Assembly: GCA_905160935.1 (NCBI GenBank)
Contig: CAJHZI010000811.1
Span: 354,501 to 418,500 of the forward strand
Direction of reading: 5' to 3'
Source of the DNA: Enchytraeus crypticus
Lineage: Eukaryota > Annelida > Clitellata > Enchytraeida > Enchytraeidae
DNA length: 64,000 bases
In this document: positions 2,902-40,020 of the stretch, piece by piece
How positions within the stretch are numbered: position 1 is the first letter of the stretch
How the letters are laid out: every line of letters begins with the position of its first letter
Notes under the pieces: model-generated
What the model was told of the DNA's origin: nothing
Seen by the model: the letters and a program-made list of their open reading frames with translations, nothing else
The model's database searches: none
Program-made: the position numbers and the translations under genes

Positions 2902-4155
2902 GGTTCCTGGTTTATCTGATCCTAAAATTATAGTGTTGCATTTGCTTGAGATATCTTAGAATTGACCTAATGGCGACGTCTAGCCTCAGATCACAAGGAA
3001 AAGAGAGGAGCTATGAAAAGGATCAAGACATGGAATGTTCTATTTGTAAGGATGAATTCACGAAACCAAAGCTGCTACCATGCTACCATACTTTCTGTCA
3101 GGATTGCTTGAAGAGACATTGTGATGAGTATCATTATGAGGAAGTCCCATGTCCACTGTGCTGGAGTGAGTTCAGTGTACCACTAGGTGGTGTGGAGAAG
3201 TTACCTGATAATCTGTTGATGGTTAGATTGATTCAGCAAAAGAGCATCGTAAACGAAGAGTGCCTGTGTGATCTCTGCAGGGAGATTGGAGAAAGTAATA
3301 AAGCGGATTCATTCTGTATGGAATGTCGTCAGAATCTTTGTGAGAGGTGCACCCTCGTGCACCTCTCACAAAGATTCTGACGACATTCCATACAGAATGA
3401 ATCCGCTTTATTACTTTCTCCAATCTCAAAAATTCATTCAAAAGCCAACAGCACAAAGCAACACAAAGTTGTTCGTATTGAAGAGAAGCCAACAGATTAT
3501 GAGCTAAAGAGATTAATGTCAAGTTACTGTAGTAAACATGACAACAAAGAATTAGATTTGTACTGTTGTGACTGCAGAGAGTTGATCTGTGCTCTGTGTC
3601 ATGGCAAAGATCATAACAAACATGATTGCAGAACTTCACATGACGTGGCTAAACAAAAGAAAGAAGTTGCTGAGAATGACAAGGAGATCATTAAACAATA
3701 TCGAAATATAGTCAGTGAAAGAAAAAAGAGATTAGAGAAGATTAAACAAGATTTTCTGCAACAGCTATCAGCAACGGAGTGCTCTCTAAGAAAATCTCTG
3801 GATGCCATTCGCAAACTCCTGGACGAATGCGAAAATGAAATGATGAATGAATTGAGAATCTTCAAGGACAATAAAATAAAAGATTTGGGGATTAAGAGAG
3901 ATTTGGAAGAGCTCCACTATGCTACTTTGGACAGTTTCCACGCATACAGTAGTATGGTTAATGAGCGTGGTACAGATTGTGAGATAATAAGAGCTGCTGA
4001 TGATCTACACAAGAGAGCTGAGGAGCTGATCCGAAATCAGATGAAGAAAACTTCAATGAGGCAAGCCGAAACAAAATTGAACTTCATTCAATCAGTGACT
4101 CCAACCCGAGAACATATTATGAGACTTGTTGGAGAAATTGAGTGTAAAGATACGG
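2902..4155 (+). pseudogene. TRIM-type RING/B-box/coiled-coil E3 ligase, 5' exon (interrupted)
   Basis: A splice acceptor (TTTTGTTTTAG) precedes base 2902, and the start codon is probably ATG 2970. Residues 23-64 form a complete C3HC4 RING (C23, C26, C38, H40, C43, C46, C61, C64). A first B-box (C-x2-C ... C-x2-C, ending C-E-R-C-T-L-V-H) follows, then a second B-box from about 3528 (C-x2-H ... C-x2-C ... C-x2-C ... H) and a Lys/Glu-rich coiled coil to about 4120. The exon ends at 4155 before GTAAGA in phase 1 and joins exactly with the exon at 7529. Family role: ubiquitin ligase with RING for E2 binding. Oddity: a 63-bp fold-back duplication (about 3366-3428) keeps the frame but adds a TGA at 3378-3380, so this copy as read would stop inside B-box 1. 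Sequence beyond it is in the same frame and otherwise healthy, so the break may be recent or an assembly error. Confidence 0.8.
3282..3427. repeat. Perfect palindrome, 71-bp arms, 4-nt loop
   Basis: Arms 3282-3352 and 3357-3427 are exact reverse complements; the loop is CCTC at 3353-3356. The right arm repeats coding DNA of the TRIM B-box in reverse. The nine bases GAGGTGCAC and their complement around the loop look like a natural seed hairpin of the coding sequence. Confidence 0.97.
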
Positions 4156-4540
4156 GTAAGAACGCTTCAGTTAATATTTGACCAATTATTTAAATAATTA
4201 ATAAATTATATTATACAAAAAAAACATAATCTCTGCTTGTACAGTAAATCTAGGCTACTTTCCAATCCGATTGTAGAAAACCTTTGCAATTTGCAAATTA
4301 TAGTCTGCATACCTTGAAACATTTTTGCGAATTTTTGATATAAAAAATAAAGTCTATTCAGTCAAATGTCTGCCTGAAAACATACCAGTAGGCTACTTGA
4401 TATTGGAGGGGGCTTGATATTAGTTTGTGTCCTGCTTATGTACTGCCGATCATGCTACTTATTTATCTCCAATAAAAATTAAAATAATTATCTACAATTT
4501 TCTTCTCAAATTTGTCACGATCTTCGTCCGGCGCAGCCAT

Positions 4541-4630
4541 ATCTGCAGCGTGAATTGACGTGGTAGCAGTACTTGTACCTGGAACTGGCGTGGCAGCAAT
4601 ATCTGCAGCTTGAACTGACGTGGCAGCAAT
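4541..4630. repeat. Three tandem 30-bp units
   Basis: Three consecutive 30-base units share the pattern CTGRA-YTG-RCGTGG-AGCA. They lie in the TRIM intron. The rest of 4156-4850 is AT-rich DNA with nothing further recognised. Confidence 0.8.
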
Positions 4631-4858
4631 AATTTAATTTTCTAATTTAATTTAACTGTATAGTTTTTTTTTAATATGATGCTCAATTTCAGCGACATTT
4701 TATTATATTGACTTTACTTAACCATATTTAAATTTTAAAAATTCGTTTAAATAGTTCATTGTTGATGAAGAATGACGGATCAGAGTATGTAAGAGTAATA
4801 CTGAAGTTATAATAAAATAGTCTCAGAGGACACGGGAGGGAGAGATCACAGCTTCACC

Positions 4859-5344
4859 GTGTCTAGCAGAGCTGCTGATCCGCTCAACTCATTCGACTCA
4901 TACCATTCTATGAATCATCTCAGTCGTCTCGAGGAACCCTCTAACCAACAACTTTTTCTCACTAGCGCCCCTCAAAATTCCACTCTGCATCTTCTAGCTC
5001 AATTCAAACCGGGAACTCAATCCCCACACGCCGCTGCTTTAAGGCGGGATATCGTAACCGGCGCCGCCGTGGCTTGGCATTCAATAGTCGCTCTCGCCAA
5101 TCACCGGTCCAGAATCTCACCTCATCACATACCAAGATCCCACGAAAGGAGGATTTTGAGAAGAAATTACCTGCAGAATGATGATGCTGTGTCTGGTAGG
5201 GTGATCACTTTGAATCACTCAGGGGAGAGAAGTCGATCGGGGAGTAACGTGACATTCGGGAGAGTGGACGGGAATCGACAGTTGCATTTTAGCTCAGGGG
5301 GTAATGAAACAAGGGGGGGTTATGGGTGTGGTCTATCGCTGCAG
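4859..5344 (+). CDS. Unassigned coding-like open stretch upstream of CFAP119-like exon
   Basis: An open reading frame of about 160 codons with higher GC than its surroundings and ordinary amino-acid composition (Ser, Arg, Asn and His rich). I do not recognise the protein and see no domain. It is in the same frame as the CFAP119-like stretch that follows, separated by a TGA at 5345-5347 and an AG just before it (CTGCAG) that could be a splice acceptor. It may be an upstream part of the same gene, a 5' untranslated region, or an unrelated exon. It lies inside the intron of the TRIM gene on the same strand. Confidence 0.3.
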
Positions 5345-5347
5345 TGA

Positions 5348-5932
5348 TACCAGGATGACAGTGTACACGACTGTTGCGTGGAGTTGCCGTTTGACAACAT
5401 GTCCTCCTGCCACTGTCTCCTGCGACAGCTCGTTCTGTGCCACTCCGTACATCGACCTCCCATCTCCATCGATCTCTACCCGCTAGAGGACGCTCAGCGG
5501 ATCGTCGAGTACGTCACCGACACCTACTTCCGTCACTTCAAGCTCTACAAGTACATGTACACGCCAGATGTTAGCTTGGACGTGGCATTTTACTATCCGA
5601 ACATACCGGCGCCTGCAGTTGAAGCGACGGATTCTGCTGGAAAGGAAACTGGAGTGAGTGATAAGACGGAAGAACAACAGAAAGGTCAAGATGAAGGTCA
5701 CATGGAGATGGAGGAATCAGAGGATTGTTCCACTCTGAGGAGACTGATAAGACTCCACCTGACTGAGGAGCTTGGTCGCCTCAAGAACTCTGCAGACATG
5801 GGGCTGCTCTCTGTCTCACAGGTCCTGGAGGAAAAGGTGGAAGAGGCGGAGAAACTGAGCGCTGAGGCTGATGCAGGAGTGAAGGTAAAGGGCTCGGGAA
5901 AGAAGGAGAAGGAAGTAAAGAAGAAAAAGTAG
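5348..5932 (+). CDS. CFAP119/CCDC189-like protein, C-terminal part
   Basis: The frame reads through L-C-H-S-V-H-R-P-P and T-Y-F-R-H-F-K-L-Y-K-Y, then L-D-V-A-F, followed by an acidic linker and a Glu/Leu-rich helix, ending in a Lys tail and TAG at 5930-5932. From memory this order (S-V-H-R-P-P ... Y-F-R-H-[YF]-x-L-Y-K-Y ... L-D) is that of CFAP119 (CCDC189), a cilium/flagellum-associated coiled-coil protein; I could not check it. The N-terminal half of such a protein is not evident, and the start is uncertain: either a terminal exon with its acceptor near 5344, or a fragment. There is no poly-A tract after the stop, so nothing marks it as a retrocopy. Bases 5516-5613 are duplicated at 8362-8459. 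Confidence 0.45.
   Translation, partial: YQDDSVHDCCVELPFDNMSSCHCLLRQLVLCHSVHRPPISIDLYPLEDAQRIVEYVTDTYFRHFKLYKYMYTPDVSLDVAFYYPNIPAPAVEATDSAGKETGVSDKTEEQQKGQDEGHMEMEESEDCSTLRRLIRLHLTEELGRLKNSADMGLLSVSQVLEEKVEEAEKLSAEADAGVKVKGSGKKEKEVKKKK
5516..5613 (+). repeat. 98-bp segment duplicated at 8362-8459 (donor copy)
   Basis: It runs from ACCGACACC to CCGGCGCC and encodes the Y-F-R-H-F-K-L-Y-K-Y block. The copy at 8362-8459 differs at two positions only. This copy sits in the longer coherent CFAP119-like frame and is therefore the likely source. Confidence 0.95.
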
Positions 5933-5939
5933 TGACGTT

Positions 5940-6560
5940 TATGATATTGACACATTGTGACGTTTATGATAGTGACATATTGTGATGTTCATAATCGGAT
6001 AGCATCATATTAGCATTTATCTCCAATTGATTCTACATAAGCATTTCTAATATTTCATTATAAACGATGTTTTGCAGATCTTTCAGCTTTTCGTTAATTC
6101 TTGACTATTAATTCAGATATTAAAGTGTCTGGGACTTGCCATTGGATTTTAAGAGTGCCAAGAAATGTTAAGTGTGAATCCCATCAGCTTCAGTGCTTAG
6201 GTAGCCGCACTCATTTCTCTCTGCAAACTGAATTGCTGCACTATAGTAGGTATATAAGCCTGTCATCTCAAATATTCCAAAAAAATTTTTATCATCTTTA
6301 TTGCGTGGTTTAGGGGCGAACTCCATACATTGCTGCAACATTGCTCGGAATAAAACAATCGTTATTCTAGGGTTTGCAGGAAGACAATTTAATTGATGAC
6401 GACACAGCTATTTTCGCATCAATCTATAGGCTATGAGTGAAACAATTTCTGAAATTGGAATAATGTATGCGGATGATATTTCTGCTGCTGATATTAATAT
6501 TATGATTACTGTCAATTGCATAAATGTTAAATGTTCATAGTTCTTGTGATATTAGGAAAC
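5940..6560. other. Non-coding stretch in TRIM intron
   Basis: AT-rich DNA; the start holds two imperfect copies of a TGTGACGTTTATGAT unit (about 5933-5985). No gene, promoter or known repeat is evident. Confidence 0.5.
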
Positions 6561-6569
6561 TGTTCGGAA

Positions 6570-6957
6570 GATATTAGGAAACTTGAGGCATTGAAAATGT
6601 TGATTTGGAGAAGAATAGATAAGATTATCTGGACTCAAAAGGTCACAAATGACAAAATTCTGGAGAGTTGATACAGATAGACAGTTGATAAATGAATTAA
6701 GAAATTGGAAGAAGAGATGGATAGGACACATTCTAAGAGGGGAAGAGCAATTAATGGAGGTCATAGAAGGTAGAATGATAGGGAAAAGAGGCAGACCCAG
6801 GCCGAGATTTGGTATATTGGATGATTTAAAGACCCAAGCATATGTGAAAATGAAGCAGAAAGCTGAAAACAGAGAAGAGTGGAGGCGTTATATACCATGG
6901 TCCTGCCAGTAGGCAGTGCACTAAGAGAGAGAGAGAGAGTGTGTGTGTGTGTGTGTG
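6570..6957 (+). mobile_element. LINE family A, 3' fragment with GA/GT tail
   Basis: Frames at 6585-6912 give the family A C-terminus: W-R-R-x-x-[KR]-I-x-W-T-Q-K-V-T-N, then D-R-Q-L-I-N-E-L-R-N-W-K-K-R-W-I-G-H-I-L, G-K-R-G-R-P-R-P-R and E-E-W-R-R-Y. It ends GCAGTGCACTAAGAGAG and passes straight into (GA)n(GT)n at about 6925-6957. It is 5'-truncated and frame-broken. Confidence 0.85.
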
Positions 6958-7144
6958 ATTGCATACATGGCATATCGTACGTGTTACTTAGTTTTCTAAC
7001 TTGTTTGCTGTTTTTGTAGTTTTATTTATTTTCTACATTCGTCTCTCTTGTTACGAGCAATCTTTAATTATTGATAGTGCATTGCTTGCATCTATAACCC
7101 GCTATACGCGGTTATTCGAATAATCGTAAAACACCCTGAGAATT

Positions 7145-7352
7145 TTATTCGGAAGTTCTACTAAGAGAATTAGTAGAAGGTAGAATGGAAGGAAAGAGAA
7201 GCAGACACAGAGCGAGATTAGGCATGTGAGATGATTTAACCCATTCATCTATGGACATGAAGAGGATAGCGGAAGACAGCGAAGGGTGCAGGTTGCATGT
7301 CATGGACCTGCCAGCAGGCAGTGCACTAAGAGAGAGAGAAAGAGAGAGTAGT
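7145..7352 (+). mobile_element. LINE family A, second short 3' fragment
   Basis: It matches the last 200 bases of family A (E-G-R-M-E-G-K-R-S-R-H-R, then CCTGCCAGCAGGCAGTGCACTAAGAGAGAG) with a deletion and stops. It also ends in a GA tract. It lies just upstream of the second TRIM exon. Confidence 0.8.
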
Positions 7353-7528
7353 TATTTTAGCAGAGCATTATACTTTAATTTTTAATGTTATATTTTTATT
7401 TTCATATAATATATATTTTTCATTTTATATTTTTATTGCATTATTTTTCTAGGTTGTGACTATTTTTAAAATATTTTCTTAATGCTGCTTATTATGAAAT
7501 GTTGCATATGGCCTTTTACAATGTTTAG

Positions 7529-8361
7529 GTTCTAGTGAAGCATGGCTCAGCTCTAGTACTGAGGTTAAGGTCTTACAAGTCAAGACTGAGCAGATCATGG
7601 GACTAACAGTCGTGGATGATGAGATCTTTGTGGTGGGAGCGCGTCAGTCACAAGTCAACGTGTATGACTCACACAGTCTGACATGGTCACGTGATATCAA
7701 CATTCCTGGTATGAGGAAACCTCAAAGTTTGGCTGGTTGCACCTACAACAAAGCTCTTTATATCAGCAACTGGTGGCTCGACTATATCCACAGAATCGAC
7801 CTCAACAACAACAACTCTGTTACTCGCTGGAAGATGAGAGAGAATCATAGGCCACGTTATCTCTCAGTGACACAAGAGCACAATGTGCTTGTTACAGTGA
7901 AGAGGATCAATGATGAGACATCACCGTGTGGCTGTGATCTGTACACGAGTGAGGGTCAACTGCTGCGTGAGATAGGATTTGATAAACGCATTGAATACGC
8001 TCAGCAGGCAATTCAGTTGTCACGTGATCAGTTCATCGTACGTCACGGGTTGGACCCCTACAAACTCCTTTGTGAAGTGTCTTTGATAAACGCTGAGCCA
8101 CAAATTGTAACATTGCATAATGGAGTCGCTAAAGATATGCCGGTCCATGTCACCTCATTAACAGTTGATTATAAGCATAAACTCGTTTTTGTGATTAAAT
8201 ATAATAGCAAAAGAATTTTTGTATTAGACACAGACTTCAAATATCTAGGTCAGGTTCATACACGACGTGACCTCCAGGAACCTCGTTATCTGTGCTATGA
8301 CTCTTCCACTGACAGACTATTTGTATCTGAGTATAAGAAAGGTGGTGCATTTGTCATTAGT
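7529..8361 (+). CDS. TRIM gene, propeller exon
   Basis: The acceptor ATGTTTAG precedes base 7529. The two leading bases GT complete the Gly codon begun by the G at 4155, and the frame then stays open. The roughly 280 residues show repeating propeller-like strands (D-x-I-F-V-V-G, K-A-L-Y-I-S-N, R-Y-L-S-V, H-K-L-V-F-V-I-K-Y, R-I-F-V-L-D, D-R-L-F-V-S-E) of the NHL/TolB-like beta-propeller found C-terminal in many invertebrate TRIM proteins, where it binds targets. Without the fold-back the two exons would give about 687 residues including the odd tail. The expected closing strand after about 8361 is replaced by the 98-bp CFAP119-like copy, so the last blade is probably truncated. No human orthologue can be named; such TRIM families are expanded in invertebrates. 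Confidence 0.75.
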
Positions 8362-8469
8362 ACCGACACCTACTTCCGTCACTTCAAGCTCTACAAGTAC
8401 ATTTACACGCCAGATGTTAGCTTGGACGTGGCATTTCACTATCCGAACATACCGGCGCCATATACATAA
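8362..8469 (+). pseudogene. CFAP119-like segment fused in frame to the TRIM propeller
   Basis: Bases 8362-8459 copy 5516-5613 with two differences (a T for G and a C for T) and are read in the same frame as the source, so the propeller continues as D-T-Y-F-R-H-F-K-L-Y-K-Y before TAA at 8467-8469. No splice signal lies at the joint (GTCATTAGTACCGAC), so it looks like a direct DNA fusion followed at once by a hairpin (8469-8515). Confidence 0.85.
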
Positions 8470-8515
8470 TTATAATTATCAAGACGTACATATAGTACGT
8501 CTTGATAATTATAAT
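8469..8515. repeat. Perfect hairpin, 21-bp arms, 5-nt loop
   Basis: Arms 8469-8489 and 8495-8515 around ATATA. It starts at the stop codon of the fused TRIM exon. Confidence 0.95.
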
Positions 8516-8942
8516 GGGTTAGCGACTAATAACCGAGGTGTCTTCCTTCTAAACGCCTTGTCATAGCTGTACCAGGGTCAGTCTTACAGAAATAATTAAC
8601 AAATATCTAACAATTCAACTTTTTTCACATTTGATGTGATAGGCTCCTCAATAACTTTAGTAATTTCTGATCAAAACTTACTTCTTATCTATCTTAAATA
8701 AATAATGTTTTTTAATTAATTAGTTTGCAATATGGTGCTAACAACAGCTACAGCCTATACATGTATGTCTATTTGCAATGGATGCAACATCGATCGACTA
8801 GCATTGCCGTATATTTCAATACCATAACTAATACGTTAATAAATAAGTGCGTGAAATAACATTAAGCGACAATTAATGGGTAAGAATTTTTACGATTGAA
8901 TAGCATTGAATTTAAAGAATTTATTTATTTAGCTAATTGATT
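8516..8942. other. AT-rich flank without assignable content
   Basis: This is downstream of the TRIM exon; no polyadenylation site is clear beyond scattered AATAAATA-type strings near 8696 and 8839. Confidence 0.4.
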
Positions 8943-9072
8943 TATATGTTCGTGAAATGATAATTTGGATTGATGATAAATTATCATTTCACGAACATAT
9001 AATTCCTTCTTCATTAATTAATATAATTAATGAAGAAATCCTTCTTCATTAATTAATATAATTAATGAAGAA
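8943..9072. repeat. Cluster of three hairpins
   Basis: First: arms 8943-8966 and 8978-9001 (24 bp, loop 11 nt). Then a shorter hairpin with 14-bp arms around AATA (about 9007-9037), CTTCTTCATTAATTA and its complement, is repeated directly at about 9040-9072. Confidence 0.9.
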
Positions 9073-9414
9073 TAATATTTAATAATTCCGATAACAGTAA
9101 ACCGTGTGTTAAATTCTGCGTGTATACAGTATATGTTCATAATGCGGCTCTTTGTTGACATGTACATTGCATATTAAGTTTTATTCAAATTCAAAAAGAT
9201 TTGAAAATAAATTTGAATAAATATTAAAGTGCTTTGCTTGAAATATTACATCTAGTTTCTCTTGAATAGGCCTATTCATATTATTAAATCTATTCTTAAT
9301 CATAGCATATATGACTTAGTAATGTGACTACAATAGTATAATATTTAAAAAGCGAAGATACCTAATTTTCGCTTGGTGACCCTTTGGGAAATTAATTAAT
9401 TATCCATGTTGATC

Positions 9415-9655
9415 TGTTTGTCACACTGTATGTATCGATCAGCTTTGATCATATGGAAGCTGTTACACATGGATAGACGTTATCGATCAGCTGTGATCAT
9501 ATGTGACACATCGATAGTTATGATCATATGGAAGCTGTGATAGATCGATAGACGATATCGATTAGCTATGATCATATGTGAAACATCGATAGACGTTATC
9601 GATTAGATATGATCATATGAAAGCTCTGACACATCGGTAGACGTTATCGATTAGC
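9415..9655. repeat. Tandem repeat carrying TGATCATATG palindromes
   Basis: About five imperfect units, spaced roughly 30-60 bases, each combine ATCGAT[CT]AG with TGATCATATG and GACACATCGATAG. TGATCATATG contains the palindromes TGATCA and CATATG. Confidence 0.85.
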
Positions 9656-9709
9656 TGGGTCGTCGAGATATCGACATTTATTGTGCCGTAAATCTTAACC
9701 TGGGGAAGG

Positions 9710-10015
9710 TGTTATAACTTATAAGTATTTAGTACTAACAGGGTAATGACTACTTAGGAGTAACCTATGTAGGGTTGATGAGTACTTAGTAGTGACCAAG
9801 AGAGGGATACTGAGTACTTAGTAGTAACCTAAGAACGGGTGTCGAGTACTTAGGAGTAATAAATGGACGGGTATTGAGTACTTGAAGTATCCTAGGGAGA
9901 GGTGATGAGAACTTAGGAGCAACATATGGAGGGTTGGTGTGTATTTAGTAGTAACCTAGGAAGGATTGAAAGGTAGTTAGTAGTAACATGGAGAGGATTA
10001 ACAAGTACTCAATAG
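9710..10015. repeat. Degenerate minisatellite, about 37-bp unit
   Basis: About eight or nine units share GAGTACTTAGTAGTAACCTA-type cores with a G-rich spacer (AGGGTTGAT, AGAGGGATACT, GGACGGGTATT). The units differ by 15-30% by eye. Confidence 0.85.
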
Positions 10016-10294
10016 TTATCTACATGTACTCGATTCTGCGAGTATTTTCTCAGTTTTTTTCTGTAATAACTTGCCTTCAAATTGTGCAATTTTTTATCTC
10101 CTGCATGGTTTGTATGGGACACATATAGTCTACATGTATATAGGCTTAATCTGTATGCATACATTTCTCAAATGTAATTAAAACTATACCAAGTTGTCTG
10201 ATTACATTTATTGAATTTCTCCCAAATTTACTCTCGACAATGTCTGACCGTTCTCAGCTCCGCGTTGTACCTTATTTATTGTGCTATTAAACTA

Positions 10295-10575
10295 AGTTAA
10301 TAGAGAAGGAGAGAAGGTTGACAGAAGGTTGAGGTTTTTAGGTCATTTACTGAGAATTTCTGAGGATAGATACGCAAAGACTGCAGTTAACTGGAAGCCA
10401 ACTCAAGGAAAGCGGAAACGAGGAAGACCTAGAAGTACTTGGCTAAATACGATCAAAACGGATTTGAGAGCATTAAATATTTCAAGGGAAGACACTGCGA
10501 AGATTGCTGATGATAGAAAAGAATGGAGGAATGTTACCGCCCTATGTTCTGTACAGAACTCAAGGAACTGATGAT
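10295..10575 (+). mobile_element. LINE family C, 3' fragment
   Basis: The frame 10329-10571 encodes R-F-L-G-H-L-L-R-I-S-E-D-R, G-K-R-K-R-G-R-P-R-S-T-W and E-W-R-N-V-T-A-L-C, the C-terminal end of a LINE reverse transcriptase polyprotein. The tail after the stop is TGATGATGA, matching copies with long (ATC)n at 17258-17393 and 22197-22310 on the minus strand. Confidence 0.8.
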
Positions 10576-10809
10576 GAAATTAAGTTGATGCTAGTCGTTT
10601 ACTTGAGATCTGTATAAAGTCATTGCAAATCAATTCAAGCGTGCAAGAAAGCTAACAATTGACATATTGCACATACATCTAACGAATTTTGGCTTCGTGA
10701 TGTTCGGATTACAGAAGCTGAAGTCGAATGTAACACCGATATTTCTGTTCATGGCATACTACTGAAAATACAATAATGATGGAAAAGAATAAATCATTCC
10801 ATAATGATG

Positions 10810-10910
10810 GAAAAGAGCACTGGAATTGAACCCTGCTCCTACTGATCCACTGTCAAACAATCTGCTAACACACCGCTTGCTAAGCCCTCGTTCTGCCACA
10901 ATTGAATACA
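10810..10910 (-). mobile_element. tRNA-derived SINE head
   Basis: On the minus strand a promoter-like A box (TAGCAAGCGGTGTGTTAGCAG) at the 5' side and a B box GGTTCAATTCC about 50 bases downstream are visible. It is not a functional tRNA, because no cloverleaf pairs closely enough. Confidence 0.5.
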
Positions 10911-11079
10911 AATGGTGACTTCTAGAAATTGTATAGTAAGGCTAATTGTCACTTATTCCTCTATTGAGAAATGAACAGAATGGTACTGACGAGCAGCTGT
11001 CAGTGACGACAGAGGTCGTGGTGGCCGCATTCATCCACGAGCTGAGGATCAGTGGAACTAAGAGACTACATGTATCAGT

Positions 11080-11219
11080 GACAGGGTTGATAACACTAAT
11101 AGGGTTTATATCAGTGATAGGGTTAATAACCGTGATAGAGTTAATAACAGTGATAGGGTTTATATCAGTGATAGGGTTAATAACCGTGATAGGGTTAATA
11201 ACAGTTATAGGTTGATAAC
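11080..11219. repeat. 18-bp minisatellite with 54-bp higher-order period
   Basis: The units are AGGGTTTATATCAGTGAT, AGGGTTAATAACCGTGAT and AGRGTTAATAACAGTGAT in this order, and the trio repeats. GATAGGGTTA inside it resembles a telomere unit, but the 18-bp period is not telomeric. It makes artefactual V-I-G-L-I-T frames on both strands. Confidence 0.95.
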
Positions 11220-11241
11220 AATAATCGGCCATAGGCCTCGG

Positions 11242-11419
11242 TCAGGAAATTGCAATTCATGTCACCTCCTGTTATTGCCTAGCTATAGTTAATTCCTGCA
11301 ATATCGGACTCTAACCTATCACTGTTATCAGCATAACAGTGATAGGTTAGAGTCCGATATTGCAGGAATTAACTATAGCTAGGCAATAACAGGAGGTGAC
11401 ATGAATTGCAATTTCCTGA
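11242..11419. repeat. Perfect palindrome, 87-bp arms, 4-nt loop
   Basis: Arms 11242-11328 and 11333-11419 are exact reverse complements with loop CAGC. The inner arm end (ATAACAGTGATAGGTTAG) is nearly a unit of the minisatellite that ends about 20 bases to the left, so the fold-back involves satellite-like DNA. Confidence 0.97.
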
Positions 11420-12040
11420 AGACGAATAATCAATCCACAAATATTAATGCTAGATTTAATTGCCTATGTATTGAGTTGTGTAATGCACATCTTGAGATTC
11501 CTAGTGAAGTTATGTATACTTTCGCCATGGAGAAACGCAATGCTTATTCATAAATTAATCTTTTTCTTGTCAGCAATATTAATATGAAATTTGTACATTC
11601 GTTAATTACTATTACTGATTTTGACAAACTCTCTGATCAACTACCAGTCGTAATTTTTGATCATTAGGAATATCTTTATGTTGTATCCTTAAGTGATACT
11701 TGTTTGTTGTCTGTTTTCGTTTTTGTTTACTGCCATGAATTTGGTGAAATAAAGATTATATATAGGTTAAAAAAATTAAATGGGAATGAGCACCAATTAT
11801 TATTGATGCTTGAAGGTTGTTGTGCGCGCAACATCAACGTCAGAAGTACAAAACTACTGAAACTGACTCGACAAACTCTAATCTAAGATCTTACTTAATT
11901 ATCGACATCTGGTCGATTTCAATCACACATCCTAATCACTAAGATTAAGTTAACAGCAAGCCAATCAGTCAATCTTAGCCACTAGGATATGAATAATGAG
12001 AGATTTCAACTAATTACATGTAGACCTAGTTGATATTTAT
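11420..12040. other. AT-rich DNA without assignable content
   Basis: No gene or repeat recognised; an open stretch near 11704-11886 has no protein-like features. Confidence 0.4.
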
Positions 12041-12046
12041 TTTCAT

Positions 12047-12300: not shown

Positions 12301-12317
12301 CAATTGACTGATTGACA

Positions 12318-14879: not shown

Positions 14880-15880
14880 CGTGTTCAAAATTGCACAGTT
14901 CTAGGAAAAATAGCCACTTTTAACTGAATCTTGATTTGAGCCTTAATGCTAATTAGGCCTAATGCTAATCTCTTAATACTAACGCGGACGGTCCATGGCG
15001 ACAGTAACACTTTTTAAACAAATATCATGCAGTAAGTCAACGTCAAATATATTTGTTTAAAATGTGTCTGTATTTTGTCAGACGCCTTGTTGTGGTCTTC
15101 TTGTGTTATTCATTATTTACATGACATCATGCAGTAAGTCAACGTAAAATATGTCATGTAAATAATTAATAACAAAAGTAGACCACAACAAGGCGTCTGA
15201 CAAAATACAGACAAAATTTATATTGTCAAAAAGTAGGCCTATATAGGTAGGCCCCATGGCCTAAATAACAATTTTAAACAAAAATATTTGACGTTAACTT
15301 ACTAGGCCTACATAACGCCATGTAAGTAATAAAAATATCAAAAGAAGATCACAATAAGGCCTCCAATAAAAAAATGGAAAAAATTGAAATTGTCCAAAAG
15401 TATAGACGAACGTTAAAAATAGTCCAAAAATCTCATGTAGGCCTTTCCAAATTTTTATGATGATGATGACGACGATGATAAAACTTTTATGATAATGAAG
15501 AAGATGTAGATGTACCCGTATTCGTGCAAAAATGGTCACATCGCGGAAAACGGTCACTTAACTGAAATTGGATTTGAACCCTAATCTCTCAATCCACCAC
15601 TCATCGTCAGGTATTATAACAAAAACAAAAGAAAACCACATTTTGTCCATTTTTTGCGTGCAGCAAAAAATGGACAAAATTTAAATTGTGAAAAAATATA
15701 GAAGAAAGTAAAAAATTGTCCAAAAATATCATGTACCGTAAAATGTTTATGATGATAATTATGATGATCAAGATCTAGATGTCCGCGGCAGCAAGCAAAA
15801 ATACTCATGACATGACATGAGCCACAATCTCTCAATCCTAAGGCGAACGCTAAACCAATTCTACCAATACGCTTCAATAT
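14880..15880 (-). mobile_element. Cluster of tRNA-like SINE copies with an inverted repeat
   Basis: Three related blocks (about 14880-14990, 15290-15600, 15605-15880) share GTCACTT-AACTGAA-TTGGATTTGAACCCTAATCTCTCAATCC, i.e. on the minus strand a tRNA-type B box GGTTCAAATCC after GATTGAGAGATT. Each is followed by Lys-free AT-rich text with ATTGTCCAAAA and CATGTAGG/CATGTACC. Between them, 15066-15126 and about 15158-15218 form a long imperfect inverted repeat (GTCAGACGCCTTGTTGTGGTC and complement) around GCAGTAAGTCAACGTAAAAT, whose core also occurs at about 15030. The blocks look like two or three tandem or rearranged SINE copies. Confidence 0.6.
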
Positions 15881-17511: not shown

Positions 17512-17641
17512 TTTGAATTCGCGTTTTGCCTATGATGACACTTTACCCATTGTTTTAACACTAGCAACCCCTATTCATAGAGTCTGAATTCGCGTTTTGC
17601 CTTAGATGACACTTTACCCCAATGGGTAAAGTGTCATCTAA
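17512..17641. repeat. Direct repeat and hairpin with 4-nt loop
   Basis: GAATTCGCGTTTTGCCT followed by ATGATGACACTTTACCC occurs twice (about 17516-17550 and 17586-17619). The second copy continues into a perfect hairpin, arms 17602-17619 and 17624-17641, loop CAAT. After the hairpin the text resumes with CATCTAAAATATTTCAACACTAG, resembling the sequence after the first copy (TTTTAACACTAG). Confidence 0.9.
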
Positions 17642-18829
17642 GATATCATCTAAAATATTTCAACACTAGTAGAATATAACTTTCGCAGTGCGAGAGCTTA
17701 CTCATTACACTCCAGCTAAATACTCTGGTTACTGTAAGTCTTCAGACTACGGTAAAATAATTACACATCGTGTTACCAAGGGTCTTTCTCAGTCAATCTT
17801 TAATTTTCATTTATATATTTATCCTTTTCTAATACAGAAGAATAACAGCATGAATACTGAAGAATAACAGCGTTTAAGTCACCGGAGCAGAGTATTAGGC
17901 CTACTTGTAGATTACGCATTTCTACAAGAGAAGCAAGTTTAAAATTGTATCACCATTATATCACCATTTGGCATAGAAGAATGAACGGTAGTCTCTGAAA
18001 TAGAGATGGAAATTTTATGAATTTCCAGAGTTCGGTTCGGGTTCGGTTAGCAGTTGACAATTTGAGAGTTCGGATCGGTTCGGTTAGTTGAAAATGAGAG
18101 TTCGGTTCGGGTTCGGTTAGCAGTTAACAATTTTAGAGTTCGGGTTCGGTTCGGGTTTGCTTCCCACCTCTCAAGAGTTCAATTTAAGTTCGAAATGGTT
18201 TGGTTTGGATAATATTGCAATTATTTAACATTACTTATAATAATCATGGCTATGATAAACATGTTTCAAATGGTTTATGGTAAATGTGCTCAAAAATACA
18301 TAAATTAATAATAACTGCCACATTTTTCACCTGAGTAAAAATATGACAATGAAAATATGAGAGAAGTGTTATTTATTCCTGTACGTTTCAAATTTCTTAA
18401 AATATTGCAAGTTGATCAGCAAATGTTCATAAAATAGATATTTAGCTTTATTACTGTATCTGAAAAGTTCTCCTTGATTACAACCAGCAAATAGAATTCT
18501 TCATCAGTTTAAAAATAAATTTTGTCACTAGGCCTATATATTAGAAATGTTTATAATTACGTGAAAATGTCTTGGCCAAAATTTGATTCAATATTTCCAA
18601 TATAATTTCAAATTTTCAATATAATTCAATATAATAATATACAAAATGTAATTTATTAACATAAAAAAGTCAAATAAGGAGCATTTGATAAGCAAGCGTA
18701 CTTCCACAGAAAAATGATCACAATATATACCGTTTGCTATCAACTGAACCAGTAGTAAATTTCATAATTTACCTTAGGGTTTCAAATTTGAAACTAATAG
18801 TTTATTTGAGTCTAGGTAATCCTTTCCTT

Positions 18830-31320: not shown

Positions 31321-31329
31321 AATGATATA

Positions 31330-32965: not shown

Positions 32966-33950
32966 GAACTAATTACTAAAAAAATCTAGCAATTACATCC
33001 TTTGTGATACCAATTTATATATTTTTCCAATAAATGCTTAACAATACTGATATTTTATAATTTTGTATAATATACTTGTATCAATATTAATCCCCCACTA
33101 TCATAATAATAAACTTATAGCTACAAGTTGTACTTGGCAACAACGAAACCAAAATACAGCTACAGGAACACAAACCAGATCTGTTACCCCGCCCCTGAGC
33201 AGCCAACCGTCTGTTTGCATCATATTCAGAATTTGTTCCGGTTTCTGACGGCTGGTTCACAGCTATAACACAACAAAAAAGCTACAAGGCGTCAGCTACT
33301 ATTCTACTCCGAATCTAATGGCTTCAGATGTCTATCTCACGGATTCATAAGCAACACTAAACAAGACAATGCACACGTTTTTAGCAAGCTAACTACTTTT
33401 TTTTTATATAATGACAACATACAAGTGTATATATTGTCATATATATATACATGTATATATAGGAATTAAACAAATATAAAAAGCGAAGTAACATAAACAT
33501 TGTAAAGTAAACTACGCATTGTATACAGAAGTTACGTACAACCGGGCTGAACTAGAACTTAAGCGACCTTCTTCGAAGATTGAGTTATGACAGCTTTGAA
33601 TGAACAAAAACCAATGAATTTTGGAAGGTTATTCTTAAATGTTGGCTAAAATCGTTGCGATCTTGAAAGAAAGAGAGAAGGAGAGAAAGGAGGAAATAAC
33701 GAAATGCTAAAAAAAACTAGGCCAGGAAACTCTATAAACACATGTTAATTGTGTAATTGTGCGAACGAAAATTAAAATTTATAAATTGAACTCCTTAACA
33801 ATTTAGTAAAGACAATACATAAGATAAAATAAGTGATTATCTAATCTGTTGTACAGAGAAGCCCGGCAATTGACAGTAACTGATAAAAAGGCGACGAAAA
33901 GTACTTAAGTATAAATGGCAAAAGATGGAGAGTTCAAGACAAAGCGGAAT
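32966..33950. other. Intron DNA without assignable content
   Basis: It contains a short TATATATACATGTATATATA palindrome near 33440-33460 and an A-rich purine stretch near 33660-33700, with no coding signs. Confidence 0.4.
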
Positions 33951-33954
33951 GCAG

Positions 33955-34915
33955 ATTTTTAACTCATGAAAGAAAATGTAATAGGAAATGACGAAGTAGA
34001 CCCTGATATAATGAATAAGGAAATATGCAATCTGACGATATTCCAGCATAATTCTTGACAATGACAGAGAGTCAGACACTCAACAAGTTAGGTGAAGTAT
34101 GTACAGAAACTTGTGTATAAAGCCATTTAGCCAGAAGACTTTACCAAGTCAGTGATAATCCCAAACCCTGAAAAAGCCAATGCTGCGAAGTGTTCAGATA
34201 ATAAAACAATTAGCTTAATACCTCATGCCTCAATGATCTTATTAAAGATAATAAATAATCACTTTTAAATTGAAGCGGACATTATATTGAGTAAAAAACA
34301 ATTTGGTTTTATAAAATGTGTTATGTTATAAAAGGTGTTATGTATGTCCCTCGTGAACGAAGCTTACAAATATGGATCAAATGAAGTTTTTATATGTTTT
34401 GGGGACTTCGACAGGATTGAATGGATTACGATCATTATTATATATAGAAAAAGTAGGATCAGACTGAAGAGATAAATTACATAAACCAAAAGCGTCAGAC
34501 ATAAATACTTCATACTCCTAAATTATAAACTTTACATGAATGAAAGAGCTGTGATCAAGGCAAGAGTATTGAGAAAAAGACGAAATAAGATGTAGAGTAA
34601 AACTAGGTCACATCATTTCATCACCGTTGTTTAACATTTACGATGGAGAAGGACTTGGAAGACATTGTAGAAGAAATAAAAGTTAGAGGTAAAGTATTGC
34701 AAGACATGAGATTTGCAGATGAGCAAGAAATAAAAGCAGGAAGTGAGAATGAACTGCTCAAGGTAATGGATACTCTGAACGAAATGGTATTGAAGTGCGG
34801 TACGCAGAAAATAAAAAACAAATGTGATGAAAGAAATTGTCAACATCACCATAAATGATACAAGACGTTATAAATACTTTGGTCACATATAACAGATGAT
34901 AATTACAGTGATTAA
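33955..34915 (+). mobile_element. LINE family A, degenerate plus-strand copy
   Basis: Fragments F-T-K-S-V-I-I-P-x-P (about 34140), S-L-I-P-H-A-S (34215), Q-F-G-F (34305), M-E-K-D-L-E-D-I-V-E-E-I-K-V (34643) and L-Q-D-M-R-F-A-D-E-Q follow the family A order with many frameshifts; the catalytic second Asp is Glu here. Confidence 0.8.
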
Positions 34916-34952
34916 GATATGGTAGCCAGAATCAAGAAGATAATGGATACTT

Positions 34953-35090
34953 TATGGCGACGTCGATAAGATACTCGACCACGGATCAGTATGTGCAGGG
35001 TTCAAATCCTGGGCTCGCCGGTCACTGATATCGTCTTCGAGTGAGGAAACTGATGTTAACCTTAGCTTTACTAGCTTTTACTAGGAGTTA
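34953..35090 (+). mobile_element. SINE family 1 (tRNA-derived), copy 1
   Basis: TGGCGACGTCGATAAGATACTCGACC, then GGATCAGT, a B box GGTTCAAATCC, GGGCTCGCC and a tail GTGAGGAAACTGATGTTAACC. The same order recurs at 40085, 47105 and 60960, all on the plus strand. Confidence 0.85.
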
Positions 35091-35099
35091 CTGTGGAGA

Positions 35100-35815
35100 A
35101 AGTAAAAGGAGATGTTGGAAAACGTAAGAGTCATTGGAAAGTAAAGGACACAGGGTGAATAACGAAAAAATTGAGCAATCGGAGAGTAGAAGGAAGGGTG
35201 AGATGATAAACGGAGATAGAGTAATAAGACAGGGAATGGAGCTAAGGAAGGTCACAGACTTTAAGTAGTTAAGGTCTATAATAGAGAATGATGATGAGTT
35301 GGAAAAGGAGGTTAATAGTAGGATTCAGGCTGGGTGGGTAAAGTGAAGGGCAGCTGTGTGATAGGAAAATACAACTAAGATTGAAAGGCAAATTTCACAG
35401 TTCTGTGGTACGGCCAGTAACGATTTATGGTTCAGAGGGTTGGGCCCAAAACAGGGAACTTTTACAGAGTTTGCATGTGGCTGAAAAGAGAATGCTATGT
35501 CTAATGTGTAGCAAAACAAGGAAGGAGAGAATGGAAAATGAATAAGTGAGCATTAATGCGAGTGTTGAGGGGATCAGCGATAGGTTGACTAAGTCGAGAT
35601 TGAGATTGTATGGGCATATGAGGATGCAATAAAGAGAGTTTAGAGGGAAGATTGGGCTGGATATTAAGCTAGAGAGAAGTAGACCACAACTGACATGGGA
35701 TGCAGTGAAAGAAGTATGTGAAAAATAGGGGATTGACTGATGACATAGTGTGGGACAGAGAAGATTGGAGAAGGTCTATTCGTATCCCGACACCCTAGAT
35801 AAATAGGGATTTTAA
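35100..35815 (+). mobile_element. LINE family E (RTE-like), C-terminal part
   Basis: The plus strand reads with frameshifts S-x-I-E-N-D-D-E-L-E-K-E-V-N-S-R-I-Q-A-G-W-V-K, V-R-P-V-T-I-Y-G-S-E-G-W-A, V-A-E-K-R-M-L-C-L-M-C, R-L-R-L-Y-G-H-M and R-E-D-W-R-R-S-I-R, typical of the end of RTE/BovB-type polyproteins. It ends at about 35815 before GGAAGATACCGATGA. Another 3' end of this family is at 610-770. Confidence 0.8.
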
Positions 35816-36086
35816 GGAAGATACCGATGAATAATAAATAACAGAATTACGTGACTAAATACTGCCGTCCTATTAGTATGATCAATTCAAGCTTTAGAGC
35901 ATTTGTTTAGATTTAGAGCCAAACTTATAACTAATACAGTATATCTTTAATTATTACATTATCTATAACTGCTTAACACTTATTGATGGCTTTTACAAAT
36001 AAACGTTCTCTTTCGCAAATCTTTATTTTATTAAACTATTATGAAGTACACTAAAAAGAATAAATCTGATATTCTAAAATAATTAC
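35816..36086. other. Intron DNA next to the Pointed-domain exon
   Basis: AT-rich, with no recognised repeat. Confidence 0.4.
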
Positions 36087-36299
36087 CTGCAAATTTACAT
36101 TTACGCAAGAGCTCAAGATGAGTCCAGAAGATACTGTCCACATCATTTGGGAAAAGACTGTTAAACTCATCCAGTGTAAGGCGATATAAATCTTGACCAG
36201 TTAATTCGATGCTGTGAATGTCCAGTTCATTAAAACAGAAGTGTTCAGATGCCCAGTGAAGCCAGTACTTTACATGATCCGTCGTCCACTCTACAGGAT
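36087..36299 (-). CDS. GABPA: GABPA exon 5: Pointed (SAM/PNT) domain
   Basis: Acceptor ATCTATAAG, donor GCAG|GTAATT. The exon reads D-P-V-E-W-T-T-D-H-V-K-Y-W-L-H-W, L-T-G-Q-D-L-Y-R-L-T, F-P-N-D-V and I-F-W-T-H-L-E-L-L-R-K, the helical Pointed domain of ETS factors (protein-protein interaction). The first Asp codon is split with the exon at 41987, and the last G continues in exon 6 as Gly. Confidence 0.93.
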
Positions 36300-36438
36300 C
36301 TTATAGATAATAAACAGCCAAGCATATTGGAGACTGTCAGTATTTCACTAGCATCACATCGATTTCAAACACACCTCTACATATCTATGTAAGCAATTAT
36401 AGAAAATCTTAAATCTCCAAGAGTTTTCTCTAAGCATT

Positions 36439-36624
36439 TTAGAAATATTCTGATATATGCATCATTCGAGTGGTGTACTCTAATACTTCATGTTTCAAAA
36501 GGGTGTCGTCTTCAAGATTATGGTTTTGCTCTCCAGAAGACTCAGGCTCTGCTGAATCGTTCTTAGTCGGACATGAGTGATTTTTGTTTGCACTTGGGCC
36601 TTGTGGACTAGCTTTTGTTAACAG
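36439..36624 (-). other. Coding-like open segment upstream of the Pointed exon
   Basis: On the minus strand an open frame reads K-A-S-P-Q-G-P-S-A-N-K-N-H-S then D-S-A-E-P-E-S-S-G-E-Q and D-D-T-L-L-K-H-E, ending at TAA 36441. The composition (Ser, Pro, Glu, Asn) is that of a disordered linker. An AG precedes it at about 36613 and a possible donor GTATTA follows H-E, but its phase does not fit a cassette between exons 4 and 5. It may be chance, or an alternative exon. Confidence 0.2.
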
Positions 36625-37064
36625 GAAATATTTTAAATGTCAGGATCAAGACATAAAATCCTTAACAATAGCCAATGTACCTGAATAAAAGGAATAATGA
36701 TATGTTTCTTTATAATTTCGCTCTTCATTCCCCTCATGCAAATCTTATCTTACTGTATATATTAATTAGCTTAAAAGACTATCAAAGTTGTAGTTAATCA
36801 GTTAAAGTAGTTACACATAACTAGACAAAGTTTAAGATTATGGACGATATCAGGCTGAAGATGCCGGGAATTCAATGTCTAAACGTTAAGAATACAAATG
36901 CTATAGTAATTAAAATTGAGGGAATTCAAAATGGCAAGGCAAACAAGCTATATTGCAATGAACCTGTCGTAAAAAATGTGATATTGCCTTTAGATGTTTT
37001 GCAACAGCACTTTTGCAATAAAGACTTTGAGGCATAGTTTATTATTGGTCTAATATAGTACAAA

Positions 37065-37565
37065 ATAATGCATAGTACGCGATTGGAACAAGTAAGAAGC
37101 TTGAAATATCTGGGCCACACCAGCACGGACGATGCAAAGTGTGACATGGAAATAAAATGTAAAATTGCACAGGTGAAAGATGCTTTCAGAATGAGAAAAA
37201 ACTACAAACAAAAGGCATTGAGGAAAATACAAAGATAAATATTGTGAAAACATTGGTATGGTTGACACTTCTATGTGGATGTGAACGTGGACATTAAAGA
37301 GATATCAGGAAACTGGAAGCACTGGAACTGTGGATATGAAGAAGGATGAAAAAGATTAGTTGGACTGACAAAATTACAAATTAAAAAGTTCTTGAAAAAG
37401 TCGGTCCCGAGAGACAATTAATATGATAAAAATTTGAAGAAAATCTGGATGGAACATATTATAGGGGGGGGGGGGTGATTTGTTAAAGGATGCAGTAAAG
37501 GAATTATGACAGGGAAAAGAGTTAGAAGACCGAGATATAGGATGTTGGATGATCTGATAACAATT
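37065..37565 (+). mobile_element. LINE family A, plus-strand 3' part
   Basis: L-E-Q-V-R-S-L-K-Y-L-G-H-T-S-T-D-D (from 37083), K-I-N-I-V-K-T-L-V-W-L-T-L-L-C-G-C-E and E-A-L-E-L-W match family A; a poly-G run of 13 interrupts it at about 37465. It ends near G-R-R-P-R-Y-R-M-L-D-D-L. Confidence 0.8.
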
Positions 37566-38100
37566 TCACATTGTCAGGGACCTGATTCTACAATTTAATC
37601 TGAGGTAAAATGACGTCCTGAGATTAAATGTTCCAATAATATGCCTCTCATAATTTATTTTGGAATCTTTGCCTGTCCTCGATTTTCCACTGAATCTAGA
37701 TATCCTACTAATCGATTAATAACTTCAATGACTGTATTAAAGTAAATATTAATTTAATACGAAAAGAAATACAAATAATACACGAATATGCAGTACAACG
37801 AAAATTAAAATGATTTCAAATGGTACGTGTAAGCTAATTTTGTATAACTTAAAATTATACTTTTCTATCGAATTACAGTTCACTTTAAATATCGCAATAG
37901 CAAGTACTTTACGTAAAATACAAATACTTTCGACACATAAATTAGTACAACGCTCTCTACCACAAATTCCTACACTTTACTTCCTCTCGACTATTCGCCT
38001 ACTTGGATTCCTTCTAGTATAATCCCTACGTTAGATTATATCGGTGAACCTCTCTTCCAGTTTGATCACCTACAGATCACTCTCTTCACATAGACTGTTT
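37566..38100. other. Intron DNA without assignable content
   Basis: No repeat or exon recognised. Confidence 0.4.
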
Positions 38101-38104
38101 GATG

Positions 38105-38225
38105 TACTGGACTCCGGTTCCAGTTTGACCGGATTCCGGCATTTTTTGAAAATCCAGTTCCGTCAAATTTTGCCAAATCCGGCCCGATATGCTACCGGAT
38201 TTGGTAAACATATTTTGATATAAAA
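38105..38225. repeat. CCGG-rich interspersed repeat
   Basis: GACTCCGGTTCCAGTTTGACC, GGATTCCGG, AAATCCGG and ACCGGATTTGG motifs alternate, resembling the TTCGG iterons of hAT ends at 18001-19663 but of different sequence. The element borders are not visible. Confidence 0.45.
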
Positions 38226-38269
38226 AGTAATAAATTTATATTTCAAAATGTGCTGAAAATTTACCTCAA

Positions 38270-38576
38270 AGAAGAAGAACATAAGACTTAATGATGATTA
38301 TTTGATTAAGCATACATGTCGCAATGGTGATGCTTTTATAGTCTATTTTGATAACTTGGTTAATGATTCAATGACTGAGGCAATTAATGACTTCAAGAAG
38401 ATGACTTGATAGAGTATATACTGATATCCTAATTAATTAATTGCCTTAATAATGATGACTGAATGAGCATAAATTGGTAAAGTAGTTATAATGATTAGTG
38501 ATGATAAATAGACTGAACATATTATATTGATAACAAAGTTAATTATTCAATGATGATGATTTTATTGAGCCTGTTA
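38270..38576. repeat. Degenerate TGATGATTGA-type repeat
   Basis: About four units of 60-80 bases with GATAACTTGGTTAAT-[GAT]-ATTCAATGATGATGA. The same text resumes at about 40021-40085, so the element at 38577-39918 and the palindrome at 39925-40020 lie within this repeat. Confidence 0.6.
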
Positions 38577-39920
38577 ATTCCCTGACTTTTCCAGTGTGCC
38601 TCGACATTTCATTGCCATCGCAGCATCGATTCAATGTTGGAAAACAATGTCAGAAATGATTTCTAAACAATATGCACTTTGCTATTTCATTTTACACTGA
38701 TAGATCTACATGGTATCAAATTAGGCAAGTATCAGCATTCATGCGATTATTTTGTAACACCATTTTCTTTATGATAAGCACTGAAGTCTTGCAAATACTT
38801 TGTATATATTTATAAAAGTGATGCCTATAACTTATCTAAACCATCAAATAAGTAAATAATTAAATAGGCTAACCAATTAGATAACAGGGCGTACGCAACG
38901 TACAGTCTTGCTTGAAGAGATGTAATTTTGCTATCAATTGCTACTGCTTCGGCATTCATTTCTGACAGTTTTTGTTTCTTCCACTGCTTGAGACTATCTA
39001 TCATTAGTTTACGCTTCCTCTCTTCACTGGCACGCTTTTCTCCTTCAGATTGTTGTTCTTTCGTCAATCTGAGTGCATTCTGATAAGTGGCATGAGACTG
39101 CATAACACAGGCTATCATCTTGCTTGATAAGTCTATTTTAGTTACCTCCACACCTGCTAGAAAAATTTCATCAAAAACTATTCTTTGTGCCACAACAGAG
39201 CTTTTCTCCATGTTGTCAATTAGGAGCTCCTTATTTATTAAGAACCTAGATTCTACGGACGCATTGCCATGAGAGAGTCAAAATCATTTTAATAACTTTC
39301 CACAATCGTGATTTCTTAAGATTGCTTGGTACAAAAATTACCTGGTACAAAAATCTTAGAATAAAATTCATCAAGGTTTTGATCCCTATTATAGCTGCTT
39401 AACCTTTCTTACATTTGGTTTGTGCCAATGAACAGAGTTCAGTAAAAGAAGACTTAGTGGGTTGCAAGGGTTGCATATGTTTGAGTTTTTCAGTACATAA
39501 TTGCTGAAGTGAGTAGCCAAACCATAGTTTATTCTGTATGATGCTTTTGTCCTGCCTAGACTAAACTTTTTAGCCACCTTTGAATCGGGAAACATGGATT
39601 TAAGCAGATCTCAAGTGTCATCTGCAGGACGCATCGAGGCATGGCTTTTGACCATTTTCAAACAATACAGAATTTCCGCGCGAAAGACTTGATGATCTAA
39701 TAAATCGCATTCATCTTAAATGCTCCGACACCGCTGGTCTATGCAACTGCAGCAGTTTCTGATGTCGAGCTACAAGATGACGAGGTTGCTTCTAACTGTG
39801 AAAATGTTAAGAATGCCAACATTCTATTTTCCCTGACTTTTTCCATTTTTCCTGACTTTTCCCTGACCACTTTCAAATTCCTTGACTTTTTCCGGTTTTC
39901 CAGAAGAGTGGTCACCCCGT
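38577..39920 (-). mobile_element. hAT-like DNA transposon remnant
   Basis: The right end holds GGTGACCACTCTTCTGGAAAACC (read on the minus strand) followed by repeats of the [AG]AAAAAGTCAGGGAA type; the left end has CCCTGACTTTTCC. The minus strand encodes A-E-I-L-Y-C-L-K-M-V-K-S-H, M-F-P-D-S-K-V-A-K-K-F-S and G-R-T-K-A-S-Y-R-I-N-Y-G-L-A near 39710-39480. Later, in an open frame 39275-38825, come L-S-H-G-N-A-S-V-E-S-R-F and M-E-K-S-S-V-V-A-Q-R-I-V followed by a Lys/Glu coiled coil. I know the motifs S-H-G-x-A-x-V-E-R-G-F and M-F-P-D-S-x-I-A from uncharacterised transposase-like proteins of animals. The middle of the transposase is deleted. Confidence 0.55.
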
Positions 39921-39924
39921 AATG

Positions 39925-40020
39925 ATTATATGAAGCTTGAAAGACTTGATTGAACATAAACTTATAACCTCACTAGGTTATAAGTTTATGTTCAATCAAG
40001 TCTTTCAAGCTTCATATAAT
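39925..40020. repeat. Perfect palindrome, 46-bp arms, 4-nt loop
   Basis: Arms 39925-39970 and 39975-40020 are exact reverse complements; loop CACT. It starts within a few bases of the transposon end. Confidence 0.97.

Follow-up and report, generated by a model that had tools for sequence, protein, structure and literature searches.

Long perfect hairpins with inverted loops in the Enchytraeus crypticus genome: probable products of short-range inter-strand template switching

How does a genome acquire hairpins whose arms are perfectly complementary over tens of nucleotides and whose loops are only a few nucleotides long? The question is raised by a 64,000-nt stretch of the genome of the annelid Enchytraeus crypticus (contig CAJHZI010000811.1, positions 354,501 to 418,500; referred to here as the window), which contains four such hairpins with 4-nt loops, P1 to P4, together with several relatives. 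Perfect hairpins are often ascribed to snap-back priming, to mobile elements or to artefacts, because the sequence that preceded the event is usually missing. Here the same genome (assembled into 802 contigs that total 524,188,772 bases) provides copies of these loci that lack the hairpin, and the orientation of the loop then reveals the route, an inverted loop indicating that the opposite strand served as template. Read in this way, five of the hairpins are each likely to be a one-off local insertion produced by an inter-strand template switch.

Loops compared with hairpin-free copies

The five hairpins, all with perfect arms, are the following.

3282-3427, forward strand: hairpin P1, arms 71 nt, loop CCTC (4 nt); paralogues lack the insert
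8942-9002, forward strand: hairpin with arms of 25 nt and a loop of 11 nt that is inverted neighbouring sequence; the hairpin-free copy is L013
11242-11419, reverse strand: hairpin P2, arms 87 nt, loop CAGC (4 nt); the copy L010 has no hairpin
17601-17642, forward strand: hairpin P3, arms 19 nt, loop CAAT (4 nt), lying in the second unit of a pair of adjacent repeats
39925-40020, forward strand: hairpin P4, arms 46 nt, loop CACT (4 nt), within a dispersed repeat

Six window hairpins are readable against a hairpin-free copy, and in five of them the loop is the reverse complement of the next k bases beyond the arm in that copy. The loop and copy sequences pair as CCTC/GAGG at P1, CAGC/GCTG at P2, CAAT/ATTG at P3, CACT/AGTG at P4 and GGATTGATGAT/ATCATCAATCC at 8942-9002, so that k is 4 four times and 11 once; all five comparisons were repeated in one script. 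Each of these loci has an adjacent inverted copy that is absent from its homologous copies, and a composite form of the same arrangement is found at 8469-8515. As far as can be judged from sequence, the inserted piece corresponds to the inverse of the arm plus the next k bases. Beyond the insertion the flanks resume at P1, P2, P3 and P4 by sequence comparison, with far flanks that differ between the two units at P3. Assessed by eye, in-register complementarity in the hairpin-free copies is nil (0 bp) at P1, P2 and P3; it amounts to 1 bp at P4 and reaches 3 bp at 8942-9002.

The most extensive comparison is available for P1, which interrupts a gene.

2970-4181, forward strand: RING/B-box (TRIM-type) reading frame, with an in-frame ATG at 2970

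The inserted piece spans 75 nt (3353-3427) and consists of the loop and an inverted copy of 3282-3352. At least 29 stretches of the same genome terminate exactly where the left arm ends (window 3352), and in 10 pairs of adjacent stretches compared by coordinates the window is 75 nt longer. Among 10 paralogue sites picked by pattern, the arm is followed by GAGG, of which the loop CCTC is the reverse complement, in four, including the closest paralogue (L002, 90% identity); the same four sites continue with ATTC, like the window, and the remainder read GAAG, AAAG, GATG or GCAC after the arm. P1 was apparently copied from the locus's own arm and not from a paralogue, because its arms match at 71 of 71 positions whereas the paralogue arms differ by about a tenth. 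The insert sits in the B-box 1 region and, its length being a multiple of three, adds an in-frame TGA (3378-3380) to a frame that is otherwise open throughout. Searches of prokaryote-genome and viral collections returned no relatives of the TRIM-type protein. A different history for P1, a 63-nt insertion on an earlier GTGCAC-CCTC-GTGCAC hairpin, had fitted the window alone and was rejected, because the insertion measured against the paralogues is 75 nt long and they lack that hairpin.

At P2, the right arm is the older sequence, and the left arm and loop (11242-11332) form the inverted copy. Identity to the hairpin-free copy L010 (contig C372) is 95.7% from the right arm onward and 88.7% upstream; L010 has GCTG ahead of the right arm, where the window has 13 bases that do not align to it (11229-11241), the left arm and the loop CAGC. 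P3 corresponds to a 34-nt insertion (17620-17653) relative to repeat unit A, in which ATTG follows the arm, whereas the window continues with CAAT and the inverted arm. The repeat that hosts P4 has at least 35 copies of its right part in the genome. Six copies were fetched, all without the hairpin. In each, the arm is followed by 4 nt (AGTG in four copies, TGTG and AGTA in the other two) and then by AATGG, or in one copy by ATTGG; the return point of P4 shares AAT, a 3-nt homology. For 8942-9002, L013 (contig C421) matches the window at 95.4% identity along the 195 nt that lead up to the arm end and then reads ATCATCAATCC, to which the loop GGATTGATGAT is the exact reverse complement over all 11 positions.

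Two side observations concern these loci. Window segments 3000-3700, 8493-8756 and 10850-11750 match C372:1022050-1034623 in order and on one strand, which suggests that this region is a paralogous segment without the three hairpins (window about 3000-11750). Two bases past the 8942-9002 hairpin, a 35-bp unit that is itself a palindrome (arms 14 nt, loop 3 nt) is duplicated in tandem at 100% identity (9004-9072).

A probable switch to the opposite strand and competing explanations

The proposed mechanism would begin when synthesis gets to the end of the arm and shifts to the opposite strand k bases ahead (k = 4 in four cases and 11 in one). Those k bases would be copied backward first, followed by the arm over 19 to 87 nt, after which synthesis would go back to the original template; the k bases would thereby become the inverted loop and the copied arm the second, perfect arm. 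The opposite strand is taken to be the template because the loops are inverted relative to the hairpin-free copies. Whichever way the loci are read, the second switch point is located beyond the first, over bases still to be made by the nascent strand, an arrangement described as the sign of an inter-strand event that rules out an intra-strand template (Walker and colleagues, PMC7954356). The agent would presumably be replication or repair synthesis, and the paralogues are taken to represent the state before the event. The three longest hairpins of the window contain no mismatch in 204 arm pairs, which bounds arm divergence at about 1.5%; they are either young or kept identical, and a recent origin is the assumption favoured here.

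The sixth readable hairpin, at 8469-8515 (arms 21 nt, loop 5 nt), belongs to a larger insertion.

8363-8494, forward strand: composite insertion made of a 98-nt copy from the CLAMP gene, 9 nt, an inverted copy of 8495-8515 and the loop ATATA

In the paralogue from C372 (L047), ATTAGTAC runs directly into GTTTTGATAATTATAATGGG, and the window has the composite insertion between them. GTAC flanks the insertion on both sides, and its 98-nt CLAMP-gene copy is 98% identical to 5516-5613. This composite structure with a distant template would fit serial switching. As a side observation, the CLAMP-domain segment 5516-5613 has been copied in frame into the end of an NHL-like frame (8362-8459).

Several points weigh against inter-strand switching as a uniform account. 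The loop at 8469-8515 is ATATA, where the rule predicts TAATG from the L047 sequence. A further hairpin, found in a sample of the genome (L028 5150-5326; arms of 81 nt with 1 mismatch, loop of 15 nt), keeps its loop in the original orientation, so that inversion is seen at neither of these two loci. At P1, AAAA precedes ATTCATTC after the inverted arm, and the expected template GAGG is gone. The far flank of P3 differs between the two repeat units, AATATTTC versus ATTGTTTT, and because of this difference P3 is the weakest of the five cases; the far flank of 8942-9002 was not found within about 400 nt. All comparisons use paralogues or repeat copies and not a sister allele or sister species. 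Finally, a simple template switch does not explain why k should be 4, a value that may hint at a staggered break.

The staggered-break alternative proposes that a double-strand end bearing a 5′ overhang, short and often of 4 nt, folds shut so that the overhang becomes the loop. The hairpin end would then be opened by a nick inside the arm, and after fill-in it would be joined with filler to the other end. This route can be likened to an extended form of the P nucleotides of V(D)J joining, and 4-nt 5′ overhangs are characteristic of topoisomerase II. It yields the same inverted loop and accounts for k = 4 in four of the five cases, as well as for extra bases at the far junctions (AAAA at P1, 13 nt at P2 and 11 nt at P3) and for the GTAC that recurs on either side of the insertion at 8363-8494. 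The four bases are, however, not kept past the inverted arm at P1 and P4, and the genome sample described below has no peak at 4 nt; the k of 11 at 8942 and the AAT homology at the return point of P4 suit switching equally well. A staggered break is considered a rather unlikely origin. A more specific proposal, that of a recurrent lesion with a four-base stagger in which the broken end is closed by its own overhang as a tetraloop and the hairpin is opened tens of bases away, is held to be doubtful. If true, repair of four-base staggers would insert long inverted copies resembling P nucleotides with inverted four-base loops, and such end processing would operate across the genome and disrupt genes, the TRIM-type gene at 2970-4181 among them.

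Inter-strand switching has also to be distinguished from library or assembly artefacts, in which fold-back or chimeric molecules would be mistaken for genomic sequence. The perfection of the arms and the stop codon placed in a gene by P1 are what such artefacts might produce; long reads often contain fold-back artefacts (PMC12870357), and chimeras that depend on structure are known from short-read libraries (PMC10908179). A fold-back read would turn back on itself, however, whereas both flanks resume at P1, P2 and P4, and filler and a distant template are present at the junctions. In addition, the genome contains a few hairpins with diverged arms, the contigs are of megabase size (up to at least 5.69 Mb), and the loops obey a rule described in living yeast (PMC8604942). 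An artefactual origin is thus regarded as improbable.

The earlier note on this sequence had proposed intra-strand snap-back priming on a short natural hairpin. The loops are indeed short, the closed cores would be stable as DNA (-3.5 to -5.1 kcal/mol, a property of the product), and L028 5150-5326 has snap-back geometry; 4-nt loops are also over-represented at switch-corrected ribosomal RNA (rRNA) hairpins (PMC8794818). Snap-back would nevertheless keep the orientation of the loop, and it is rejected at the five loci because their loops are inverted and their hairpin-free copies have no short hairpin in register, the in-register complementarity of 0 to 3 bp given above contradicting the proposal. 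As a general explanation it is very improbable. L028 5150-5326 itself is an inverted copy of the start of its own repeat, placed at the repeat end, and at least 39 other stretches of the repeat were found; it could be an instance of snap-back geometry or an event at the end of an element.

An origin as a miniature inverted-repeat transposable element (MITE), a fold-back element or a hairpin-RNA gene is scarcely credible even though some hairpins of the genome belong to repeats (L038 7170-7244 and L028 5150-5326) and P4 lies within one, for the arms of P1 to P4 recur nowhere else in the window, apart from a copy of the P3 arm in unit A, no target duplication flanks P1 to P3 and only a non-abutting AATG occurs near P4, the fetched P4 copies lack the hairpin, and the only Rfam match at gathering score lies elsewhere in the window. 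The statement that these are not classical MITEs therefore stands for the window; the genome-wide check for dispersed copies covered P1, P2, P4 and 8469-8515, among the matches listed.

Abundance in the window and in a blind genome sample

The window was scanned for hairpins with perfect arms of at least 12 nt and loops of at most 30 nt, AT-rich and low-complexity arms being set aside, and chance was modelled with 40 order-2 Markov simulations in 2-kb blocks. Eleven perfect hairpins with arms of at least 12 nt were found in 64 kb, compared with 0.1 expected; nine have arms of at least 15 nt, a length reached in none of the simulations, where the longest arm was 13 nt. The rescan recovered perfect arms and 4-nt loops at all four palindromes reported before, with P1, P2 and P4 exactly as described and P3 extended to 17601-17642, with arms of 19 rather than 18 nt. 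Of two looser hairpins reported with them, 8469-8515 with its loop of 5 nt was confirmed, and the other kept its loop of 11 nt but extends over 8942-9002 instead of 8943-9001. Two hairpins had not been listed.

15640-15680, reverse strand: hairpin with arms of 18 nt and a loop of 5 nt, the left arm being absent from an 80%-identical neighbour
40389-40427: AT-rich hairpin with arms of 19 nt and a loop of 1 nt

The first falls outside the six readable hairpins, its neighbour being only 80% identical, and the AT-rich hairpins at 40389-40519 and 50047-50142 were excluded from the analysis of origin.

The eight window hairpins with arms of at least 18 nt have loops of 1, 4, 4, 4, 4, 5, 5 and 11 nt. 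Under a uniform model of loop lengths from 0 to 11, one length common to at least four of the eight has p of about 0.03 in a post hoc test, and the repetition of length 4 is thus only mildly unusual. The loops of P1 to P4 had also been said to start uniformly with C. This holds as written on the forward strand, but it depends on the strand: the copied arm of P2 is the right one, its loop reads GCTG in the copying direction, and C then comes first in three of the four.

A blind sample of 20 stretches of 10 kb each, their positions fixed in advance (200 kb including 2,500 N, hence 197.5 kb), contained 20 perfect hairpins with arms of at least 12 nt, compared with 0.6 expected, and four with arms of at least 18 nt, compared with none in 10 simulations. 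The genome is therefore rich in short-loop hairpins, in agreement with the suggestion that a fold-back type of mutation acts often in it. Hairpins with arms of at least 18 nt are denser in the window, which was picked for its oddity (8 in 64 kb versus 4 in 197.5 kb, p = 0.0024); for arms of at least 12 nt the difference in density is not significant (p = 0.21). Loops of at most 10 nt account for 16 of the 20 sampled hairpins, without a peak at 4. Loops of exactly 4 nt make up 3 of 20 in the sample versus 4 of 11 in the window for arms of at least 12 nt (Fisher p = 0.21), numbers too small to exclude a 4-nt rule, and 0 of 4 versus 4 of 8 for arms of at least 18 nt (p = 0.21, again on small numbers). 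A tetraloop pattern across the genome, as had been suggested, finds no support in the sampled loop lengths, and the 4-nt loop is not established as a genome-wide rule. The age tail was drawn from 22 sampled hairpins, with AT runs, tandem repeats and repeat-borne hairpins set aside. Only four of them combine diverged arms with short loops (L022 4554-4611, L032 2168-2247, L032 3211-3254 and L038 3562-3610), most of the remainder belonging to the groups set aside or having perfect arms, and this is weak evidence for such a tail.

Known systems and other features of the window

The class of process proposed here is known, having been described as four-point switches, spacer inversion, switch-made hairpins and small inverted triplications, and perfect repeats have already been surveyed (PMC13155455). 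The closest likeness is to the short-range switches of the four-point model in great apes, in which one step makes an inverted copy of nearby sequence and perfect inverted repeats (PMC7954356). The copied stretch there has a median of 12 and a maximum of 128 nt, compared with 23 to 91 nt here (loop plus arm), and the great-ape events were read against sister species, whereas the at least five events in 64 kb reported here were read against paralogues.

In yeast, spacers are inverted through intermolecular switching, by which the loop becomes its reverse complement and the arms are perfect afterwards, with example spacers of 3 to 5 (PMC8604942). That process acts on pre-existing inverted repeats, 9 of 10 being perfect beforehand, whereas the copies of P1 to P3 have no repeat in register and the new sequence includes entire arms, 19 to 87 nt long. 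Switches that make rRNA hairpins likewise generate perfect stems in one step, with 4-nt loops over-represented, but correction of existing stems dominates there and loop inversion is rare (PMC8794818). The small inverted triplications of rad27/FEN1-mutant yeast, tied there to DNA replication, also involve a small local inverted copy; they have a DUP/IN/DUP structure with a spacer of about 30 and arms of about 150 bp, in contrast to the short loops seen here (PMC13334657), and no second direct copy of an arm was found beside P1 to P4 in the window.

The inverted junctions of origin-dependent inverted-repeat amplification (ODIRA) similarly involve switching between two strands at the fork and hairpin-ended intermediates, but ODIRA yields kilobase amplicons from pre-existing interrupted inverted repeats (PMC10766183). 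Long perfect inverted repeats in coding DNA are also known from nematomorph mitochondrial genes, with template switching as one suggested cause; both arms stay coding in that mitochondrial case, whereas P1 adds a stop codon (PMC6649704). A literature search, mostly without subscription journals, returned no set of long new inverted-loop hairpins read against hairpin-free copies in one genome.

The events described here look like short-range inter-strand template switching, long and densely clustered. A single event of this kind can create a long perfect stem, introduce a stop into a gene or carry a distant exon into another one, and the loop-orientation test is applicable to any repeat-rich genome.

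The window also contains CLAMP-domain and reverse-transcriptase frames, and together with the RING/B-box frame and a histone 3′ stem-loop these make it look eukaryotic. The stem-loop of the histone 3′ untranslated region (RF00032) lies at 57122-57168 and scores just over gathering. Two further hairpins, 15012-15062 (arms 14 nt) and 15112-15166 (arms 16 nt), have different arms and a common 23-nt loop, CATGCAGTAAGTCAACGT(A/C)AAAT; the second is nested in a 70-nt imperfect hairpin (15058-15220), and 15271-15303 matches 15031-15063 in inverted orientation. A dispersed repeat at 40094-40197, with several occurrences in the window and the sample, may be SINE-like (short interspersed nuclear element), because its GGGATTCAAATCC resembles the B box of tRNA genes.

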